From Defluviitalea saccharophila (lineage in GTDB: Bacteria > Bacillota > Clostridia > Lachnospirales > Defluviitaleaceae), in NCBI RefSeq assembly GCF_038396635.1, contig NZ_CP121687.1, positions 186,001 through 250,000 of the forward strand: DNA of 64,000 nt, read 5' to 3'. The notes under the pieces were generated by a model, which made no database searches, had not been told where the DNA came from, and was given only the letters and a program-made list of their open reading frames with translations. The first letter of the stretch is position 1, and each line of letters starts with the position of its first letter. A program made the position numbers and the translations under genes. Shown in pieces: positions 33,082 through 60,051 of this stretch.

Positions 33082-33130
33082 AAGGCGCGTATTCTATGTT
33101 TTTATCACATAGAATACACGCCTTTACATT
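33082..33130. terminator. Bidirectional terminator between the capA-like gene and glnN
   Basis: A 17-bp stem, AAGGCGCGTATTCTATG with CATAGAATACACGCCTT (one mismatch or wobble), separates two convergent genes. The T-tract is better on the + strand. The arm shares AAGGCG with the nitrogen leader terminators but lacks their hexaloop hairpin. Confidence 0.8.
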
Positions 33131-36254: not shown

Positions 36255-36273
36255 TTTTTCACCCCTCCTTTCA

Positions 36274-36320
36274 AAAAAATAAGGCGCCATAGGTTTTTTA
36301 CCTATAGCGCCTTTGCTTTA
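36274..36320 (-). promoter_or_regulatory. asnA leader: hexaloop hairpin overlapping an intrinsic terminator
   Basis: Read on the minus strand, the transcript would start near 36321 and at once form a hairpin with loop AAAGGC (stem AGC/GCT, a mismatch, then two more pairs). The loop bases and 3' strand are also the 5' arm of a 14-bp terminator stem, AAGGCGCTATAGGT with ACCTATGGCGCCTT, loop of five A, followed by A and seven T. The two structures exclude each other. The layout fits an ANTAR-type antitermination site. The hairpin here is the weakest of the three in the island. Confidence 0.7.
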
Positions 36321-36327
36321 TGAACGT

Positions 36328-36356
36328 AGTATATCACCAAAAATTTTATTTGTAAA
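36328..36356 (-). promoter_or_regulatory. Promoter of asnA-glnN
   Basis: On the minus strand, TTTACA and TATACT are separated by 17 bp. The predicted start falls directly before the leader hairpin. Confidence 0.7.
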
Positions 36357-36479: not shown

Positions 36480-36508
36480 TTGACATTATTATTATTTTCC
36501 TATATTAT
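36480..36508 (+). promoter_or_regulatory. Promoter of the glutamate synthase-glnA-nitR operon
   Basis: A perfect TTGACA and TATTAT are separated by 17 bp. The expected transcript start is near 36515, three bases before the leader hairpin. Confidence 0.75.
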
Positions 36509-36517
36509 ATTACTACA

Positions 36518-36595
36518 GTGAACAAAGGCGTTCACCAAATAACAAAGACAATTGTATTTTTGTCTGTTTTTGTTATTAGGTGAACGCCTTTTTTT
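36518..36595 (+). promoter_or_regulatory. Glutamate synthase operon leader: ANTAR-type hexaloop hairpin and terminator
   Basis: GTGAAC-AAAGGC-GTTCAC (36518-36535) is a perfect 6-bp hairpin with a six-base loop having A at position 1 and G at position 4, the signature of RNA sites bound by ANTAR proteins. Bases 36524-36536 (AAAGGCGTTCACC) also pair perfectly over 13 bp with GGTGAACGCCTTT ending at 36591, giving a terminator with seven T. Binding of the small hairpin would prevent the terminator. The intervening 42 bases hold a further stem (AGACAA/TTGTCT) that does not have a canonical hexaloop. Confidence 0.8.
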
Positions 36596-36620: not shown

Positions 36621-37712
36621 ATGCTGAAAGAAGGAGAAATACGAATACCATCCGGTTGTGCTATATCGGGAATTTTTTCAAAGTCGGGCAAAAGAATTAG
36701 TGGGGAATCTATTATTAAGTCGATTGCAACAATGCATGACCGCTCTAATGGTTTAGGAGGAGGATTCGCTGCTTACGGAATTTATCCTGAGTACAAAGAC
36801 TATTATGCTTTTCATATATTTTACGACGGAAATATCTCGAAAAAAGAATGTGAAGAATTTTTGGAACGTCATTTTGACATAATTAATCTTTCTAAAATAC
36901 CAACAAGGAAGACTCCAGGAATCACAGATGTACCGTTGATCTGGAGATATTTTGTGACACCTCTTCCAACCAAATTAAATGAAAGTCAGTTGGATGAGAA
37001 AGAGTTTGTGGCAAGATGCGTCATGAAAATAAATACGAAAATTAATGGAGCATATGTGTTTTCCAGTGGTAAAAATATGGGCGTTTTTAAAGCGGTAGGC
37101 TATCCCGAGGATGTCGGAGAATTCTATAGACTTTCAGAGTATGAAGGTTATTCCTGGACCGCTCATGGAAGATATCCAACCAATACCCCAGGATGGTGGG
37201 GAGGAGCCCATCCTTTTGCATTATTAGATTACTCTGTAGTACACAATGGTGAAATATCTTCTTATGATGCTAATAGAAGATCTATTGAAATGTATGGCTA
37301 TAAATGCACATTACAGACAGACACTGAAGTCATTACTTATATCATCGATTATTTAAATCGTAAAATAGGACTTAATTTAGAAGAAATATCGGCTGTTGTT
37401 GCAGCTCCATTCTGGCAGGTTATTGACAGGATGCCAAAGGAAGAAAAAGAAAAGTATACGTATTTGAGAAGTGCTTTTGCATCTTTACTGATCACAGGGC
37501 CGTTTTCCATATTAGTAGGATTTGATGGAGGGATGATGGCGTTAAATGACAGATTAAAACTTCGTTCCATGGTGGTTGGAGAAAAAGATGACATGGTTTA
37601 CATGGCAAGTGAGGAATGTGCTATACGAGTTATAGAACAGAATTTAGACAAAGTTTGGTCGCCTCAGGGTGGAGAAGCAGTTATTGTTACGTTGAATGGA
37701 GGTGCAAAGTAA
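36621..37712 (+). CDS. Glutamate synthase, glutaminase (class II amidotransferase) subunit
   Basis: A 363-residue Ntn-type amidotransferase that would release ammonia from glutamine for the FMN subunit. The likely nucleophile is Cys13 in PSGCAISGIF, so a 12-residue propeptide has to be removed. Supporting motifs are HDRSNGLGGGFAAYG, AHGRYPTNTPGWWGGAHPF, VHNGEISSYDANR and LQTDTEVITYIID. This split form, related to COG0067, is found where glutamate synthase is made of separate subunits. I start at the ATG after GGAGGTGGG. The stop overlaps the next start by one base (TAATG). Confidence 0.9.
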   Translation: MLKEGEIRIPSGCAISGIFSKSGKRISGESIIKSIATMHDRSNGLGGGFAAYGIYPEYKDYYAFHIFYDGNISKKECEEFLERHFDIINLSKIPTRKTPGITDVPLIWRYFVTPLPTKLNESQLDEKEFVARCVMKINTKINGAYVFSSGKNMGVFKAVGYPEDVGEFYRLSEYEGYSWTAHGRYPTNTPGWWGGAHPFALLDYSVVHNGEISSYDANRRSIEMYGYKCTLQTDTEVITYIIDYLNRKIGLNLEEISAVVAAPFWQVIDRMPKEEKEKYTYLRSAFASLLITGPFSILVGFDGGMMALNDRLKLRSMVVGEKDDMVYMASEECAIRVIEQNLDKVWSPQGGEAVIVTLNGGAK

Positions 37713-39217
37713 TGGGGATTAATTATTTATATCCTGAATACGAAGTTGTACGAAATATGGATAGATGTATAAACTGTAGAGTTTGTGAACGACAGTGTGC
37801 CAATGAAGTTCATAGCTTCGATGAAGAGAGAAAGATTATGTGCAGTGATGATGCTTTATGTGTCAACTGCCATAGGTGTGTATCTCTTTGCCCAACAAGA
37901 GCCCTTAAAATAGTAAAAACTGATCATACATTCAAGGAAAATGCCAACTGGAGCGGCAGAGCGATTACAGAAATCTATAAGCAGGCGGAAAGCGGTGGAG
38001 TACTTCTTTCCAGTATGGGAAATCCAAATAATTATCCTGTTTACTTTGATAAAATTCTTATCAATGCCTCTCAGGTTACTAACCCTTCCATTGACCCTCT
38101 TCGTGAGCCGATGGAAACCAAAGTATTTTTAGGCAGCAAGCCTAAGAAAATAGAGAGGGATAAGGATGGAAAGCTTATCAATAACTTATCTGCAGGCGTT
38201 GAACTGGCTATGCCAATAATGTTTTCTGCCATGAGTTATGGTTCTATTAGCTATAATGCCCATGAAAGCTTGGCAAGAGCTGCACAGGAAGCAGGCATTC
38301 TATATAACACAGGTGAAGGAGGACTTCATAAGGATTTCTATCAATATGGCAGTAACACCATTGTACAGGTAGCATCAGGAAGATTTGGCGTGCATAAAGA
38401 CTATCTCGAAGCAGGAGCTGCAATTGAAATCAAAATGGGGCAGGGAGCAAAGCCAGGTATAGGAGGACATCTGCCCGGAGCAAAAATAGTAGGGGATATT
38501 TCTAAGACCAGAATGGTTCCTGAAGGCTCTGATGCTATTTCTCCAGCTCCCCATCACGATATTTATTCTATCGAAGATTTAAGGCAATTGGTATATTCAC
38601 TAAAAGAAGCAACAGACTATAAAAAGCCGGTAATTGTTAAAATAGCAGCCGTTCATAATGTGGCAGCAATAGCCAGCGGTATTGCACGAAGCGGCGCAGA
38701 CATCATTGCCATTGACGGATTCCGTGGTGGTACGGGAGCTGCTCCTACAAGAATCAGAGATAATGTAGGAATTCCAATAGAACTTGCACTGGCAAGCGTA
38801 GATCAAAGATTAAGAGATGAAGGCATAAGAGATAATGTGTCCATTGTTATAGGGGGAAGTATTAGAAACAGTGGAGATATTGTAAAAGCAATTGCTTTAG
38901 GAGCTGATGCTGTTTATATCGGAACTGCTGCTTTAATTGCTCTGGGATGTCATCTTTGCAGAAGCTGTCACCTCGGAAAATGCAACTGGGGTATTGCAAC
39001 CCAAAGACCTGAATTGGTAAAACGTCTAAATCCCAATGTAGGTTACCAAAGACTTGTTAATCTTGTCAGGGCATGGAACCATGAAATCAAAGAAATGATG
39101 GGTGGTATGGGAATTAATTCTATAGAAAGCTTAAAAGGAAATCGTCTGATGTTAAGAGGCCTAGGACTTAACGAAAAAGAACTTCAAATACTCGGCATTA
39201 AACATGGGGGAGAATAA
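37712..39217 (+). CDS. Glutamate synthase, FMN-containing synthase subunit with ferredoxin domain
   Basis: A 501-residue catalytic subunit that adds ammonia to 2-oxoglutarate and reduces it at FMN. The N-terminus has two [4Fe-4S] motifs (CINCRVCERQC at about 19-29 and CVNCHRCVSLCP). The barrel domain shows MPIMFSAMSYGSISYNAHE, GEGGLHKDF, IKMGQGAKPGIGGHLPG, IDGFRGGTGAAP, and cysteines in GCHLCRSCHLGKC for the [3Fe-4S]-type cluster. Start ATG overlaps the upstream stop by one base. The whole is the archaeal-type split GltB core. Confidence 0.93.
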   Translation: MGINYLYPEYEVVRNMDRCINCRVCERQCANEVHSFDEERKIMCSDDALCVNCHRCVSLCPTRALKIVKTDHTFKENANWSGRAITEIYKQAESGGVLLSSMGNPNNYPVYFDKILINASQVTNPSIDPLREPMETKVFLGSKPKKIERDKDGKLINNLSAGVELAMPIMFSAMSYGSISYNAHESLARAAQEAGILYNTGEGGLHKDFYQYGSNTIVQVASGRFGVHKDYLEAGAAIEIKMGQGAKPGIGGHLPGAKIVGDISKTRMVPEGSDAISPAPHHDIYSIEDLRQLVYSLKEATDYKKPVIVKIAAVHNVAAIASGIARSGADIIAIDGFRGGTGAAPTRIRDNVGIPIELALASVDQRLRDEGIRDNVSIVIGGSIRNSGDIVKAIALGADAVYIGTAALIALGCHLCRSCHLGKCNWGIATQRPELVKRLNPNVGYQRLVNLVRAWNHEIKEMMGGMGINSIESLKGNRLMLRGLGLNEKELQILGIKHGGE

Positions 39218-39229
39218 GGGGGGATTTTG

Positions 39230-39658
39230 GTGAGAAGAGTATACGTTAACGAAGAATGGTGTTTAGGCTGTCATTTGTGTGAATACTACTGCGCATTTGC
39301 CAATTCTAATGAAAAAGATATGGCAAAGGCTCTTAAAAATGTAACCATTCATCCAAGAATTCAATTGGAAGAAGGCAATAATATAAACTTTGCAGTATCC
39401 TGCAGGCATTGTGAAGAGCCGCTGTGTGTTAAAGGGTGTATTACCGGAGCTCTTTCAATCAAAGATGGAGTGATCACTGCGGATACAAATAAATGTATTG
39501 GATGTTATACCTGTATCTTATGCTGTCCTTATGGAGCTATCAGTCCTGGTGAACATGGGGTTATACAAAAATGCGAATTATGTACCAATAACATAAAGGG
39601 AACGCCTCATTGTGTGGTAGGTTGCCCCAATAGTGCGATCGTCTTTGAAGAGAGGTGA
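39230..39658 (+). CDS. 4Fe-4S dicluster ferredoxin subunit
   Basis: A 142-residue electron carrier with multiple cysteine sets: CLGCHLCEYYC, CRHCEEPLCVKGC, CIGCYTCILCC and CELC followed by HCVVGCP. The pattern resembles HycB/CooF-like electron-transfer subunits carrying up to four [4Fe-4S] clusters. Between the FMN subunit and the FAD oxidoreductase it probably relays electrons to glutamate synthase. The start is GTG six bases after GGGGG; a TTG one codon earlier is too close. It ends just before the oxidoreductase. Confidence 0.9.
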   Translation: MRRVYVNEEWCLGCHLCEYYCAFANSNEKDMAKALKNVTIHPRIQLEEGNNINFAVSCRHCEEPLCVKGCITGALSIKDGVITADTNKCIGCYTCILCCPYGAISPGEHGVIQKCELCTNNIKGTPHCVVGCPNSAIVFEER

Positions 39659-39662
39659 GAAA

Positions 39663-40901
39663 ATGAAATACGTTATAATAGGAAATTCAACAGCTGCTGT
39701 CGGTGCAATTGAAGGAATCAGAAAAATTGACTTGGATGGGGAAATAACAGTCGTTAGCAAAGAACCTTATCATGTATATTCAAGACCTCTAATATCTTAT
39801 TTATTATATGGAAAAACAGATGAAGAAAGAATGAAATACCGCAAAGATAATTTTTATGAAGCTATGAACTGTAAAACAATTCTTGGCAGGGAAGCTATGC
39901 AGGTTCATCATGAAAGAAAAGAAGTTGAACTCGATGATGATACAGTTATTAATTATGATAAATTGCTTATAGCTACAGGATCAGAACCTTTTATCCCACC
40001 TATGGAAGGAATAGAAAGTGTCAAAGATAAATTTACATTTATGTCTTTAGATGATGCAAAAAATTTAGAAAAAGCTCTTTCTCCTGATAGTAAAGTATTA
40101 ATCATTGGTGCAGGATTAATTGGTTTAAAATGTGCTGAGGGTATTAGAAAGAAAGTTGGCAGTATCACTGTGGTAGACTTAGCCGATAGAATTCTTTCCA
40201 GTATACTGGATCAGGAAGGTGCCAAGGTCGTTCAATCTCATATAGAAAAAGAAAATATTCAGTTTGTTTTAAAGACCCAAGTTACAAAGTTTTTAAATAA
40301 CAAAGCTTTGTTATCCAATGGAGAAGAAATTGATTTTGATGTGTTAGTTCTTGCAGTGGGTGTTCGTCCTAATGTCGACTTAATTAAAGAAATCAATGGC
40401 AAGGTGAATCGAGGCATTGTTGTGGATGAATTTTGTCGAACCTCTTTATCCGATATCTATGCTGCTGGAGACTGTTGTGAGTCCTATGATATTACGACAG
40501 ATCAAAATAGAGTCTTAGCTTTATTACCTAATGCCTATATGATGGGAGAATGTGCTGGAATCAATATGGCTGGTGGAGAAAAAGTTTATGACAAAGCAAT
40601 TCCTATGAACTCCATTGGCTTTTTTGGACTTCATATGGTAACTGCCGGAAGCTACGACGGAGAAGTGTATACCCAAAACGAATCTGGCCAGTATAAAAAA
40701 CTTTTTATAAAAGATGGGTTGTTAAAAGGATATATCATTATCGGCAATATTGAAAAAGCAGGAATATATACCAGCTTGATAAGAGAAAAAACTCCTCTTA
40801 GTGAGATTGACTTTGAATTAATTTGCAGCAGGCCTAGTTTAATGGCTTTCTCAAAAATTGAGCGTAAGAAAAAGCTGGGAGGTGCAATCTATGGATATTA
40901 A
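39663..40901 (+). CDS. FAD-dependent NAD(P)H oxidoreductase, electron-input subunit
   Basis: A 412-residue pyridine nucleotide-disulphide oxidoreductase family protein. The FAD motif is VIIGNSTAAVGAIEGI; the NAD(P) motif is VLIIGAGLIGLKCAEGI; the second FAD motif ends SDIYAAGDCCES. It resembles rubredoxin/nitrite reductase-type flavoproteins rather than GltD, which has an N-terminal Fe-S domain. In this operon it would oxidise NAD(P)H and reduce the ferredoxin subunit, replacing GltD. It starts at the ATG after GAGGTGAG and overlaps the next gene by 11 bases. Confidence 0.88.
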   Translation: MKYVIIGNSTAAVGAIEGIRKIDLDGEITVVSKEPYHVYSRPLISYLLYGKTDEERMKYRKDNFYEAMNCKTILGREAMQVHHERKEVELDDDTVINYDKLLIATGSEPFIPPMEGIESVKDKFTFMSLDDAKNLEKALSPDSKVLIIGAGLIGLKCAEGIRKKVGSITVVDLADRILSSILDQEGAKVVQSHIEKENIQFVLKTQVTKFLNNKALLSNGEEIDFDVLVLAVGVRPNVDLIKEINGKVNRGIVVDEFCRTSLSDIYAAGDCCESYDITTDQNRVLALLPNAYMMGECAGINMAGGEKVYDKAIPMNSIGFFGLHMVTAGSYDGEVYTQNESGQYKKLFIKDGLLKGYIIIGNIEKAGIYTSLIREKTPLSEIDFELICSRPSLMAFSKIERKKKLGGAIYGY

Positions 40902-41613
40902 TGCGAAAGATCTGCATTTTAAAGAATTAAATGAAAGAATAAAAAATTCTCCTGAAAAAGATATTGTTATTAATGAATGTAATGGCCAAAGATATATAGG
41001 AAGCGGACAAAAAGGAAAGAATATCACCATTAATGGTGTTCCAGGGAATGCTTTAGGATCATATTTAGATGGATGCATTATTAGAGTTCATGGAAATGCT
41101 CAAGATGCAACCGGGGATACTATGAACGATGGAACCATTTATATTCATGGCAATAGCGGAGACGCTTGTGGGTATGCAATGCGAGGGGGAAAAATTTTCA
41201 TAAGAGATAACGCAGGTTATAGAACGGGTATTCATATGAAACAATATAAAGATAAAAGACCTGTCATAGTAATTGGCGGCAGTGTAGGAAGTTTTCTTGG
41301 AGAATATCTTGCAGGAGGCATTATAGTTGTATTAGGATTAAATAGTGAGGAGACTCCCTCAGTAGGAAATTTTTGTGGAACCGGTATGCATGGGGGTAAA
41401 ATCTATTTAAGAACGAATCAACTTCCGCAGGATTTGCCTAAACAGGTTATTGCAAAAGAAGCAACAGCAGAAGATATGGAAGAAATCAAAGAATATATAG
41501 AGGAATTTTGCCAAGAATTTGGCGGAAACAAAGAAAACATTTTAAACTCTAATTTCTTTTGCCTGATTCCAGATACAAAAAACCCCTATAAGCAGATGTA
41601 TACCTATAATTAA
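40891..41613 (+). CDS. Glutamate synthase, GXGXG (GltB C-terminal domain) subunit
   Basis: A 240-residue right-handed beta-helix protein equal to the C-terminal domain of fused GltB. The repeats are plain: VPGNALGSYLDG, HGNAQDATGDTMNDG, HGNSGDACGYAMRGG and GGSVGSFLGEYLAGG, each with spaced glycines. In fused enzymes the domain is structural and shapes the ammonia tunnel. Its ATG lies inside the end of the flavoprotein gene after GGGAGG, so translation is coupled. It is followed by type I glnA. Confidence 0.92.
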   Translation: MDINAKDLHFKELNERIKNSPEKDIVINECNGQRYIGSGQKGKNITINGVPGNALGSYLDGCIIRVHGNAQDATGDTMNDGTIYIHGNSGDACGYAMRGGKIFIRDNAGYRTGIHMKQYKDKRPVIVIGGSVGSFLGEYLAGGIIVVLGLNSEETPSVGNFCGTGMHGGKIYLRTNQLPQDLPKQVIAKEATAEDMEEIKEYIEEFCQEFGGNKENILNSNFFCLIPDTKNPYKQMYTYN

Positions 41614-41628: not shown

Positions 41629-42945
41629 ATGACCTATACAATGAAAGAGGTTTTACAATTTGTAAAAGAAAATGATGTAAAGTTTATTCGCCTGGCATTT
41701 TGTGATATTTTAGGAACTCAAAAAAACATTTCCATTATGCCGGATGAACTTGAAAGAGCATTTGAAAATGGTATTTCATTTGATGCTTCTTCTATATTAG
41801 GGTTTATGAATGTTGAACAGTCAGATTTGTTTTTATATCCAGACCCATCAACTTTAAGTATATTACCTTGGCGGCCCCAACAGGGAAGAGTTATACGATT
41901 TTTCTGTGATATAAAACATCCTGACAAAAGACCTTTTGAAGGGGATACGAGAAATATTTTAAAAAAAGCTGTAGAACGGGCAGAAAAAATGGGTTATGTA
42001 TGTAAGATAGGTTCGGAATGTGAATTTTATCTTTTTGAGACAGATGAAAAAGGGAAACCGACAGATATTCCTTATGATGGAGGAGGATATCTAGACATTG
42101 CCCCCTTGGATAAAGGTGAAAATGTCCGAAGAGAAATCTGTTTATCCCTTGAACAAATGGGAATACAGCCTGAAAGTTCCCATCATGAGCAAGGGCCTGG
42201 ACAAAATGAAATTGATTTTAAATATAGTGATGCTATAACTGCTGCAGACAATCTGATTACTTTTAAGTCGGTTGTTAAAGCTATTGCATCAAGAAACGGG
42301 CTTTTCGCATCCTTTATGCCAAAGCCTATTTCCCATGAAAGTGGAAGTGGTCTGCATATTAATTTATCTCTTTTAAAAAATGGATTTAATATTTTTAGAG
42401 ATGGTCAGGATCATTCAACCGATGCAAAAAGTTTTATAGCAGGTGTTTTAGATAAAATATTAGATATTACTGCATTTGCGAATCCGACTACAAACTCCTA
42501 TGCTCGCTTTGGAGCTTATAAGGCCCCCAAATATGTATCATGGTCACACCAAAATCGTTCACAACTTGTAAGGATTCCTGCTGAAAAAGGAGAATATAGC
42601 AGGATGGAGCTTCGTTCTCCGGATCCATCCTGTAATCCATATATTACTTTTGCGTTGATTTTACATGCAGGACTTGATGGCATTGAAAAAGGATTAGAGC
42701 TTCCAAAACCAGTTAATTCTAATTTATATATCACCACAGGCCATGAACTAGAGAGTTTAAAAGTGCTTCCTCAGAATCTAAAAGAGGCTTTAGATATTGC
42801 ATCGGGAAGTACTTTTGTTAAAAATGTCTTAGGAGAAGAAATGCTGGATAAATATCTTGAAATCAAGCTTGGAGAATGGAATCGATATATTGAAAGCTCA
42901 GATAAAGAGAATATAGATAAGCAGATGTATTTTGATCTGGTCTGA
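41629..42945 (+). CDS. glnA: Type I glutamine synthetase
   Basis: A 438-residue dodecameric glutamine synthetase of the GlnA type. Signatures are FVKENDVKFIRLAFCDILG near the start, the metal site GSECEFYLFETD, ESSHHEQGPGQNEIDFKY, FMPKPISHESGSGLHINLS (ATP region) and NPTTNSYARFG. It lacks the adenylylation-loop sequence of enteric GlnA, as expected in Firmicutes. It lies at the end of the glutamate synthase run and 30 bases before the antiterminator gene, so it completes a GS-GOGAT cycle from one promoter. Confidence 0.95.
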   Translation: MTYTMKEVLQFVKENDVKFIRLAFCDILGTQKNISIMPDELERAFENGISFDASSILGFMNVEQSDLFLYPDPSTLSILPWRPQQGRVIRFFCDIKHPDKRPFEGDTRNILKKAVERAEKMGYVCKIGSECEFYLFETDEKGKPTDIPYDGGGYLDIAPLDKGENVRREICLSLEQMGIQPESSHHEQGPGQNEIDFKYSDAITAADNLITFKSVVKAIASRNGLFASFMPKPISHESGSGLHINLSLLKNGFNIFRDGQDHSTDAKSFIAGVLDKILDITAFANPTTNSYARFGAYKAPKYVSWSHQNRSQLVRIPAEKGEYSRMELRSPDPSCNPYITFALILHAGLDGIEKGLELPKPVNSNLYITTGHELESLKVLPQNLKEALDIASGSTFVKNVLGEEMLDKYLEIKLGEWNRYIESSDKENIDKQMYFDLV

Positions 42946-42975
42946 TCTTAAATAATGGATAAAGTCGGTGGTGGT

Positions 42976-43545
42976 ATGGAGCGTATTTTAATTGTATCAA
43001 GTTCTGAGAAAGTCAGTTCTTCATTAGAAGAACTTTTAAAATTCAACTCTTATAAAGAAATTATCTGTGCTAAAAGTGCCAATGAAGCAAAGCGCATTTT
43101 AATTGACAGAGAAATCGATTTGTGTATTATTAATGCACCCTTAACGGATGAGTTTGGCGCAAATTTTGCAATTAATGTAGTCAGTAGAGGCACCATTCAA
43201 GTCATGCTTATTGTAAAAAGTGAATTGGAAGATGAGATATCCGATAAAGTTGAAAATTACGGTGTATTTGTAATATCCAAACCAGTTAATCGACAGGTAT
43301 TCTGGAGTGCCCTGAAGCTGATTACAGCATCCTATAATAGAATGCGGGGACTTAAAAATGAAAATGAACAACTGCAAAAGAGAATAGAAGATATTCGTTT
43401 AGTGGATAGAGCTAAATGTGTTTTAATTGAATATTTGAAGATGACAGAATCAGAAGCCCATAGATTTATAGAAAAACAAGCAATGGATATGCGAATTACG
43501 AAAAGAGAAGTAGCAGAAAGAATCTTAAAAACCTATGAGAAGTAA
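42976..43545 (+). CDS. nitR: ANTAR-domain antitermination regulator of nitrogen genes
   Basis: A 189-residue response-regulator-like protein. The receiver domain (about 1-115) is degenerate: the acidic pair after MERILIV is SS, and the phosphorylation aspartate is Asn53 in DLCIIN, though the SKP lysine at 102 remains. A coiled linker leads to a C-terminal ANTAR domain (about 131-186: LQKRIEDIRLVDRAKCVLIE, MTESEAHRFIEKQAMDMR), which binds RNA hairpins. The gene follows glnA, as does nitR in Clostridium saccharobutylicum. I chose the second ATG, after GGTGGTGG; the first has no ribosome site. Its targets are probably the three leaders described here. Confidence 0.9.
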   Translation: MERILIVSSSEKVSSSLEELLKFNSYKEIICAKSANEAKRILIDREIDLCIINAPLTDEFGANFAINVVSRGTIQVMLIVKSELEDEISDKVENYGVFVISKPVNRQVFWSALKLITASYNRMRGLKNENEQLQKRIEDIRLVDRAKCVLIEYLKMTESEAHRFIEKQAMDMRITKREVAERILKTYEK

Positions 43546-45602: not shown

Positions 45603-45628
45603 AACGAAACTTTTCAATCTCTATTTCA

Positions 45629-45634
45629 TATAAT
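45629..45634 (+). promoter_or_regulatory. Probable -10 box of asnB promoter
   Basis: A perfect TATAAT seven bases before the leader hairpin. A matching -35 box is poor (GAAACT-like at 18 bp), which may mean an activator or a weak promoter. Confidence 0.5.
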
Positions 45635-45640
45635 AGATAT

Positions 45641-45677
45641 TGACAAAGGCGTCACAATTATGTGGCGTCTTTTTTTG
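45641..45677 (+). promoter_or_regulatory. asnB leader: ANTAR-type hexaloop hairpin and terminator
   Basis: TGAC-AAAGGC-GTCA forms a 4-bp hairpin with the same six-base loop as the two other leaders in the island. Bases 45645-45655 (AAAGGCGTCAC) also pair over 11 bp, with two G-U pairs, to GTGGCGTCTTT, loop AATTAT, ending in seven T. The hairpin and the terminator cannot form together. The predicted transcript start coincides with the first base of the hairpin. Confidence 0.75.
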
Positions 45678-45755
45678 TTTAACTAGACAAGTTCGTATTG
45701 TTTTCATGAATGTAATTTTTGAAAAGGAAAATTATATTGCTTAGGAGGGATTACT

Positions 45756-59849: not shown

Positions 59850-60051
59850 TAATACCCTGCGATGAGAAAGAAGAGTAGCTAAATAGAGTTGTAAAGCGAG
59901 TCGGAGATGGTGGAAGCCCGATCAATATATTTAGTGAAGGGAGCTTTTGAGCAGATGCATTCAAAACAAGGTGGATGTTTTTACATCAAAAAGGGTGGAA
60001 CCGCGGAAGCACAGAGTCTTTCGTCCCTTATGGGATGAATGGCTTTTTTTT
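59850..60051 (+). promoter_or_regulatory. T-box leader of glyS (glycine)
   Basis: The T-box core AAGGGTGGAACCGCGGAA (59991-60008) is followed by a terminator stem (60016-60027 with 60032-60043) and eight T. Stem I can be drawn from CTGC (59857-59860) to GCAG (59951-59954), with the distal region GGAGATGGTGGAAGCCCG. The specifier after GTGAA reads GGG (59939-59941), or GGA one base on; both are glycine codons. Uncharged tRNA-Gly would bind and allow transcription of glyS. Confidence 0.93.

Follow-up and report, generated by a model that had tools for sequence, protein, structure and literature searches.

A predicted ANTAR-type transcription attenuator with a single hexaloop in the glutamate synthase leader of Defluviitalea saccharophila

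The leader of the glutamate synthase operon of Defluviitalea saccharophila is probably an ANTAR-type transcription attenuator that has just one hexaloop and in which a predicted regulator would clamp a single hairpin under nitrogen limitation. The leader has two alternative folds, and both stems covary among relatives; a promoter stands at a conserved distance from the hairpin, genes of nitrogen assimilation are its partners, and the element co-occurs with genes for ANTAR proteins. The DNA analysed is a stretch of 64,000 nucleotides (contig NZ_CP121687.1, positions 186,001 to 250,000), referred to here as the window, and coordinates are positions in the window unless another sequence is named.

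The glutamate synthase leader and its operon

The leader and the operon that it precedes consist of the following features.

36480..36508, + strand: sigma-70-type promoter, TTGACA-17-TATTAT, 11/12; its spacing to the hairpin is conserved in relatives
36518..36535, + strand: antiterminator, a 6-bp hexaloop hairpin GTGAAC-AAAGGC-GTTCAC with A1 and G4 in the loop
36524..36591, + strand: intrinsic terminator, its stem running on into the interior and its T run reaching 36596
36537..36578, + strand: terminator interior, 42 nt, which extends the terminator stem; its inner hairpin forms before the outer arm
36621..37712, + strand: glutaminase-type subunit of glutamate synthase (GATase_2), first gene of the controlled operon
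37616..41613, + strand: glutamate synthase core, 4Fe-4S protein, pyridine-nucleotide oxidoreductase and GXGXG subunits
41629..42945, + strand: glutamine synthetase gene glnA, immediately before the ANTAR gene
42955..43545, + strand: ANTAR regulator with a pseudo-receiver, last gene of the operon

The promoter at 36480..36508 predicts a transcription start at about 36514-36517. The hexaloop hairpin is composed of a left arm (36518-36523, GTGAAC), a loop (36524-36529, AAAGGC) and a right arm (36530-36535, GTTCAC). Its loop and 3′ arm form part of the terminator 5′ arm, 36524-36536 (AAAGGCGTTCACC), which makes 13 perfect pairs with 36579-36591 (GGTGAACGCCTTT), followed by the T run. A sequence-only reading of this DNA had proposed a two-state antiterminator/terminator switch at this position, in which the hexaloop hairpin and a 13-bp perfect terminator with a 42-base interior exclude one another. 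The terminator, its interior and the shared bases are all exact in the sequence, the alternative folds are confirmed below, and the downstream genes provide a nitrogen context. That reading did not say what kind of loop this is, and it mentioned neither the ANTAR gene ending the operon nor the missing second hexaloop; these points are treated here.

The 86 nt at 36515-36600 fold at -36.8 kcal/mol (z -9.2), and none of 200 shuffles is equally good. When successive prefixes of the transcript are folded, the hexaloop and the inner hairpin are present in the minimum-energy structure up to a transcript end at 36579. Of the longer transcripts folded (ends at 36583, 36587 and 36591), the one ending at 36583 shows the hexaloop being replaced by the terminator, and replacement is complete at 36591. 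The switch window is therefore the last dozen bases before the T run.

No Rfam family matched the gltB leader at gathering score. Permissive matches to miRNA, sRNA and unrelated families, all below gathering score, were dismissed as chance matches arising from the long stem. The sole Rfam family in the window is a T-box leader at 59853-60031 (RF00230, 96.9 bits).

Loop identity and covariation of both stems

The hexaloop-terminator architecture before gltB is not a product of chance. Both strands of 1,172,848 bases (80 gltB loci and the window, with L001-L003 left out) were scanned for A1/G4 hexaloops that have at least four Watson-Crick pairs and in which loop and 3′ arm can also form one side of a T-tailed stem, and the same sequences reversed served as the control. 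The scan gave 100 matches, three of them L004 copies of window elements and two (L014, L027) a second register of the same element, versus 1 in reversed sequence. When loop size and sequence were left free, a switch hairpin was found in 48 of the 80 gltB upstream regions (L051, with only 2 nt of upstream sequence, being included) and in none of the reversed control. Six-base loops account for 41 of the 49 hairpin loops; every one of the 41 has A1 and G4, and 33 read AAAGGC. Another six loops have four bases, and five of these are that hexaloop plus one additional A-U pair; the other (L079) has G at position 1. The remaining 32 of the 80 regions contain no element under the strict free-loop rules, and several of them show weaker versions.

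The constancy of the loop bears on a simpler explanation, in which the attenuator is constitutive and a 5′-terminal hairpin shields the message from decay with no protein regulator involved. The hairpin does stand at the predicted 5′ end of the transcript, but the conservation of A1 and G4, the nitrogen genes downstream and the co-occurrence with ANTAR proteins would all be left unexplained, and we consider this explanation very improbable.

Comparison of stem changes among species, which the sequence-only reading had put forward as a check, bears out both structures. Alignment A1 began as 99 candidate stretches, of which 65 were left after repeats and spans longer than 92 nt had been removed; with doubtful stretches taken out and the window gltB leader put in, it has 48 rows. 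Pairing in the terminator stem reaches 99.0%; both-side changes occur at 6 of its 10 pairs and fill 45 cells (shuffled mean 16.1; 0/500 shuffles as high). In the hexaloop stem pairing is 100%, and both-side changes occur at 3 of its 4 pairs, again in 45 cells (shuffled mean 16.6; 0/500 as high). These pairing percentages and shuffle counts lean upward, because the rows were chosen for both structures and are mutually related. The covariation score lies above all 500 shuffles for either stem. For the hexaloop stem, neither the number of both-side-changed pairs (96 of 500 shuffles as high) nor the number of pair types (207 of 500) goes beyond the shuffles. The preservation of pairing in both stems through these changes does not follow from the relatedness of the rows alone. 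The middle strand takes part in either stem, and any change in it therefore has two matching changes; doubly matched variants include CAGC-AAAGGC-GCTG before asnA and glnN and GAAC-AAAGGC-GTTC before gltB. The C-G closing pair is identical in 48/48 rows.

These patterns also bear on the possibility that GTGAAC-N6-GTTCAC is a DNA operator, located after the -10 box and bound by a repressor, with the terminator incidental. The arms are palindromic and occupy a usual repressor position. However, the letters of the stem vary from class to class (GAAC/GTTC, CAGC/GCTG, CAC/GTG, GAC/GTC) around a constant, non-palindromic loop, the loop changes that do occur (positions 3, 5 and 6) are compensated in the terminator arm, and the orientation to the promoter is fixed. 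An operator is the most improbable of the alternatives considered here.

Sibling elements and a predicted nitrogen regulon

Three further elements of related form are found in the window.

36273..36336, - strand: sibling in the asnA-glnN leader, hexaloop AGC-AAAGGC-GCT (3 pairs) overlapping the terminator 36313-36281
45619..45679, + strand: sibling in the asnB leader, hexaloop TGAC-AAAGGC-GTCA with an overlapping terminator
33082..33130, - strand: probable relic after glnN, AATGTA-AAGGCG-TGTATT with an 18-bp terminator

In the Defluviitalea locus L007 the counterpart of the third element stands before amt, and in the genome studied here amt lies elsewhere; the element looks like what is left of a former glnN-amt neighbourhood. 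The sibling hexaloops are weak on their own, at -2.1 kcal/mol for asnA, which has only 3 pairs, and -2.3 kcal/mol for asnB. The gltB switch had been described as the best-formed of the three, and this fits the scores of 59.6 bits for gltB, 45.0 for asnA and 40.0 for asnB under the covariance model R1, whose rows include the gltB and asnB leaders of this genome and not its asnA and amt leaders.

With R1, at least four leaders stand above noise in the D. saccharophila genome, namely gltB, asnA-glnN, asnB and, at 2.647 Mb, amt (amt and asnB identified by Pfam); as 150 of 1996 first candidates were scored, weaker elements may have escaped this search. The amt leader harbors a tandem pair of single-hexaloop elements, both of which have a terminator of their own (G000 2646895-2646957 and its neighbour; L087 1394-1563, - strand).

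In relatives, elements are found before glnN, asnA, amt (with a P-II domain), gdhA, guaA, purC and nadE; ten downstream genes were assigned by Pfam and the others by eye, and a few elements have no clear downstream gene. The switches before genes for glutamate dehydrogenase, GMP synthase, SAICAR synthetase and NAD synthase are at L016 717, L028 2394, L023 5202, L037 7648, L046 10694 and L076 3158. A further 15 R1 loci, four of them from genomes behind earlier loci, were assigned by eye as seven of glnN type, three asnA, three amt (one after a small intervening frame), one gltB and one at a contig end. Across 199 genomes of the phylum, searched with R1 at a stricter E-value, 7 matched, the D. 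saccharophila genome included; the other six fit the model with the loop AAAGGC, and one of these (L179) reads like L068. Two loci in the phylum and outside the class, L175 and L177, carry tandem hexaloop-terminators with the loops AAAGGC and AAAGAC, and genes that by eye resemble amt or P-II lie downstream.

The predicted nitrogen regulon includes glutamate synthase, two glutamine synthetases, asparagine synthetases and an ammonium transporter, to which relatives add glutamate dehydrogenase and GMP, SAICAR and NAD synthases. To our knowledge, nitrogen control in these bacteria has been little studied.

Promoter position and the number of hexaloops

Promoters were sought upstream of 96 elements, with the window copy L004 and elements with less than 60 nt upstream left out. 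Of the 96, 76 carry a promoter that matches at 9 or more of 12 positions; among 480 shuffled upstream stretches, 51 do. For 70 of the 76 elements, 5-13 nt separate the end of the -10 box from the hairpin, which places the hairpin within the first few transcribed bases and leaves no room for an upstream hexaloop (P1). Another A1/G4 hexaloop between the -10 box and the hairpin occurs in 1 of the 76. In this locus (L078, about 6700, + strand), ATTA-ACCGGT-TAAT stands between a 12/12 promoter and the hexaloop, and it may be a dual form.

A second sample comprised 30 leaders fetched from 148 genomes of the class. The element is present in 20 of them, 7 of which repeat loci of the first set. The distance from the -10 box to the hairpin is 6-10 nt in 17 of the 20, 16 nt in two and 30 nt in one, and none of the 20 has a hexaloop (P1) after the -10 box; of the 13 elements absent from the first set, 10 lie 6-9 nt from the -10 box. 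Ten of the 30 leaders gave no element by the rules. Hexaloops missed by the rules were seen by eye in L134, L136, L149 and L153, and in L141 and L147 the stretch lies inside coding sequence.

A positive control for the dual motif, consisting of one locus only, was provided by L169, a eut locus of the same class whose eutA leader has P1, a 6-nt linker and P2 over the terminator. L169 belongs to a set of 20 ANTAR neighbourhoods, all taken from genomes that R1 does not match. Hexaloop-terminators are found in five of these neighbourhoods (L155, L157, L165, L169 and L170) and in none of the reversed control, and only L169 is dual. No dual motif was found directly upstream of EutP in the 15 orientable loci among 20 EutP loci. 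In the gltB class, a second hexaloop P1 a short linker upstream of the switch hairpin was not found in the two sets, L078 possibly excepted.

The interior of the terminator is the other place where a second hexaloop could be sought. The sequence-only reading had held that the 42-nt interior is itself folded and may carry a second signal. It does fold, as an extension of the terminator stem that brings the gltB terminator to 26 pairs with one mismatch and a 14-nt loop. The second signal was rejected as a conserved feature: the interior is variable in length, it serves as a stem extension, and the siblings are nearly without one. The span from hexaloop to terminator partner ranges from 28 to 95 nt in 97 elements, and the terminator loops of the siblings in the window measure 4 nt (asnB) and 5 nt (asnA), so that a second hairpin cannot hide there. 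An A1/G4 hexaloop lies inside the interior in 3 of 96 elements and in the 60 nt upstream in 11 of 96, the latter a rough background, as interior lengths differ. One such interior hexaloop is found in L005, the closest relative apart from L004. We read the long gltB interior as an inner stem that prepares the invasion by the terminator, with no second signal.

These observations weigh on the proposal that the leader is a canonical dual-hexaloop ANTAR antiterminator whose P1, lying before the predicted start or within the terminator interior, was missed. The published motif does have two hexaloops, and the extra hexaloops of L078 and L005 would be consistent with it. Against it stand the distances between the -10 box and the hairpin in the two partly overlapping sets, the short asnB and asnA terminator loops, which leave no room, and the eut control, in which P1 is detectable when present. 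A missed P1 is accordingly quite unlikely. It is likewise unlikely, if a little less so, that each RNA has one hexaloop and the protein dimer bridges two RNAs or tandem leaders, control then depending on high transcription. In the crystal of EutV the two hexaloops on one dimer belong to different RNA molecules (PMC8934654), and tandem elements occur before amt and in L175 and L177. However, the authors of that structure judge in-trans binding unlikely on kinetic grounds in the accessible text of the same paper, and in the window each of the gltB, asnA and asnB leaders stands alone.

The ANTAR protein and its co-occurrence with the element

The product of 42955-43545 has an ANTAR output domain (PF03861, 63.6 bits, cut-off 27.3), aligns with Rv1626, AmiR and EutV, and is encoded by the only ANTAR gene found in the D. 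saccharophila genome. The phospho-Asp position is occupied by Asn in 40 of 44 ANTAR proteins, including that of the window, and by Asp in one. Phosphorylation is therefore unlikely to be the input of the regulator. AmiR likewise has a non-phosphorylated pseudo-receiver, and by our reading of its sequence the EutV of L169 has a normal phospho-Asp. In our alignment, the family of the window protein has an invariant His and an invariant Glu (44/44 each) at the positions of the RNA-contacting Tyr164 and Arg168 of EutV. The ANTAR gene directly follows glnA in all 39 loci holding both, which suggests that glutamine synthetase may carry the nitrogen signal.

An ANTAR protein is present in 45 of the 50 genomes behind gltB loci, and the other 29 genomes carry one within the locus. 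None was found in the genomes of L010, L020, L039, L045 and L060, of which only that of L045 has the element. L010 and L020 come from metagenome-assembled genomes labelled as archaea; their gltB is about 80% identical to that of the window and has no hexaloop leader.

In a sample of 148 evenly drawn genomes of the class, R1 matches 17, the stricter filters of large searches losing weak elements, and 16 of these 17 have an ANTAR protein, versus 73 of 148 overall (Fisher p 5e-5). With the D. saccharophila genome and the five genomes behind earlier loci set aside, four of the five having given rows to R1, the proportion is 10 of 11 (p 0.003). The R1 loci of these 11 genomes share no stretch longer than 400 bases at 95% identity with earlier loci, and some are close to one another. 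A gltB of the window type is found in 35 of the 148 genomes, and 33 of the 35 have an ANTAR protein. Incompleteness of the genomes possibly accounts for the R1 match without an ANTAR match in G089, and also for the L045 genome. Among the 131 class genomes without an R1 match, 57 have ANTAR proteins, some of them of other types such as EutV.

Proposed mechanism

In the proposed attenuator, RNA polymerase would start a few bases before the hairpin, and the hexaloop would consequently be the first structure of the nascent RNA. With no active regulator present, the leader would be completed, the inner terminator would form, and its 3′ arm would displace the left arm of the hairpin base by base; once displacement is complete, transcription would stop at the T run. 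Under nitrogen shortage, the operon's ANTAR protein would clamp the loop at A1, G4 and the C-G closing pair. The clamped hexaloop would block displacement, and read-through would then take the polymerase into the genes for glutamate synthase and glutamine synthetase and into that of the regulator itself. This ANTAR protein could serve asnA-glnN, asnB and amt as well.

The regulator is most likely a NitR-like pseudo-receiver ANTAR protein. We infer that it binds the hexaloop, that one hexaloop is enough and that the inducing signal is nitrogen limitation; the transcription start is likewise a prediction, from the promoter sequence. The input would be something other than phosphorylation; one candidate is a partner such as glutamine synthetase, encoded by the neighbouring gene. 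EutV antitermination needs both hexaloops and their spacing (PMC3369931, PMC8934654), and NasR has a poorer affinity, about 12 uM, for one hairpin (PMC7496416), so that a single site may be too weak unless the protein differs. The affinity of EutV is similar for isolated P1 and P2 hexaloops (PMC8934654).

We lean modestly toward a broader reading, in which the element represents a widespread class. Such a class would combine a single 5′-end hexaloop with a pseudo-receiver ANTAR protein that is not phosphorylated and is tied to glutamine synthetase, and would provide the general nitrogen-assimilation switch of many Clostridia and of some further gut bacteria. On this reading, the recruitment hairpin of the published model would lie outside the basic mechanism, its place being taken by early synthesis of the hairpin and slow displacement.

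Comparison with known systems

The papers PMC3369931, PMC8934654, PMC6316151 and PMC3369936 are cited here for the accessible parts of their text. An A1/G4 hexaloop over a terminator is the recognition element of ANTAR proteins (Ramesh 2012, PMC3369931). Walshe 2022 (PMC8934654) redefined the minimal binding site as one hexaloop, expected such lone sites to occur where transcription sets no time limit, and called for bioinformatic work on them. A natural one-hexaloop class makes the question posed by these authors, to what extent motifs with a single hexaloop are active, directly testable. No report of single-hexaloop antitermination was found in the open papers searched, a search that covered neither supplementary tables nor the 2007 NitR paper. 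As described in the accessible texts, published searches were built on the dual hairpin and so were not designed to find a single-hexaloop class. ANTAR antitermination itself is known; the comparison suggests that what is new here is one hexaloop where published ANTAR antiterminators have two.

The gltB leader resembles the dual-hexaloop ANTAR antiterminators (eut/EutV, nasF/NasR and amiE/AmiR; PMC3369931, PMC8934654) in its A1/G4 hexaloop overlapping the left arm of the terminator, and it shares with these systems an ANTAR protein encoded in the genome, nitrogen genes and several leaders per genome. Unlike the dual leaders as described there, the gltB class lacks P1 and a linker and its hairpin is transcribed first; the invariant C-G closing pair and an interior that is often long before gltB are further differences. 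The window ANTAR protein differs from response regulators of the EutV type in lacking a phospho-accepting Asp.

A further likeness is to NitR of Clostridium saccharobutylicum, an ANTAR protein that induces GS/GOGAT genes on nitrogen limitation according to a review (PMC6316151); both are clostridial ANTAR proteins linked to GS/GOGAT genes, a likeness that concerns the proteins and genes. The ANTAR regulon of Desulfotomaculum reducens (Ramesh 2012, PMC3369931) similarly includes glutamate synthase targets under the same kind of regulator, but unlike the gltB class it was found with a dual-hairpin model. The RAT antiterminators of BglG/LicT (PMC3369936) provide a precedent for a protein-stabilised hairpin that is mutually exclusive with a terminator, although both the protein domain and the RNA motif, as presented in the accessible text of that paper, are unrelated to those of the gltB class.
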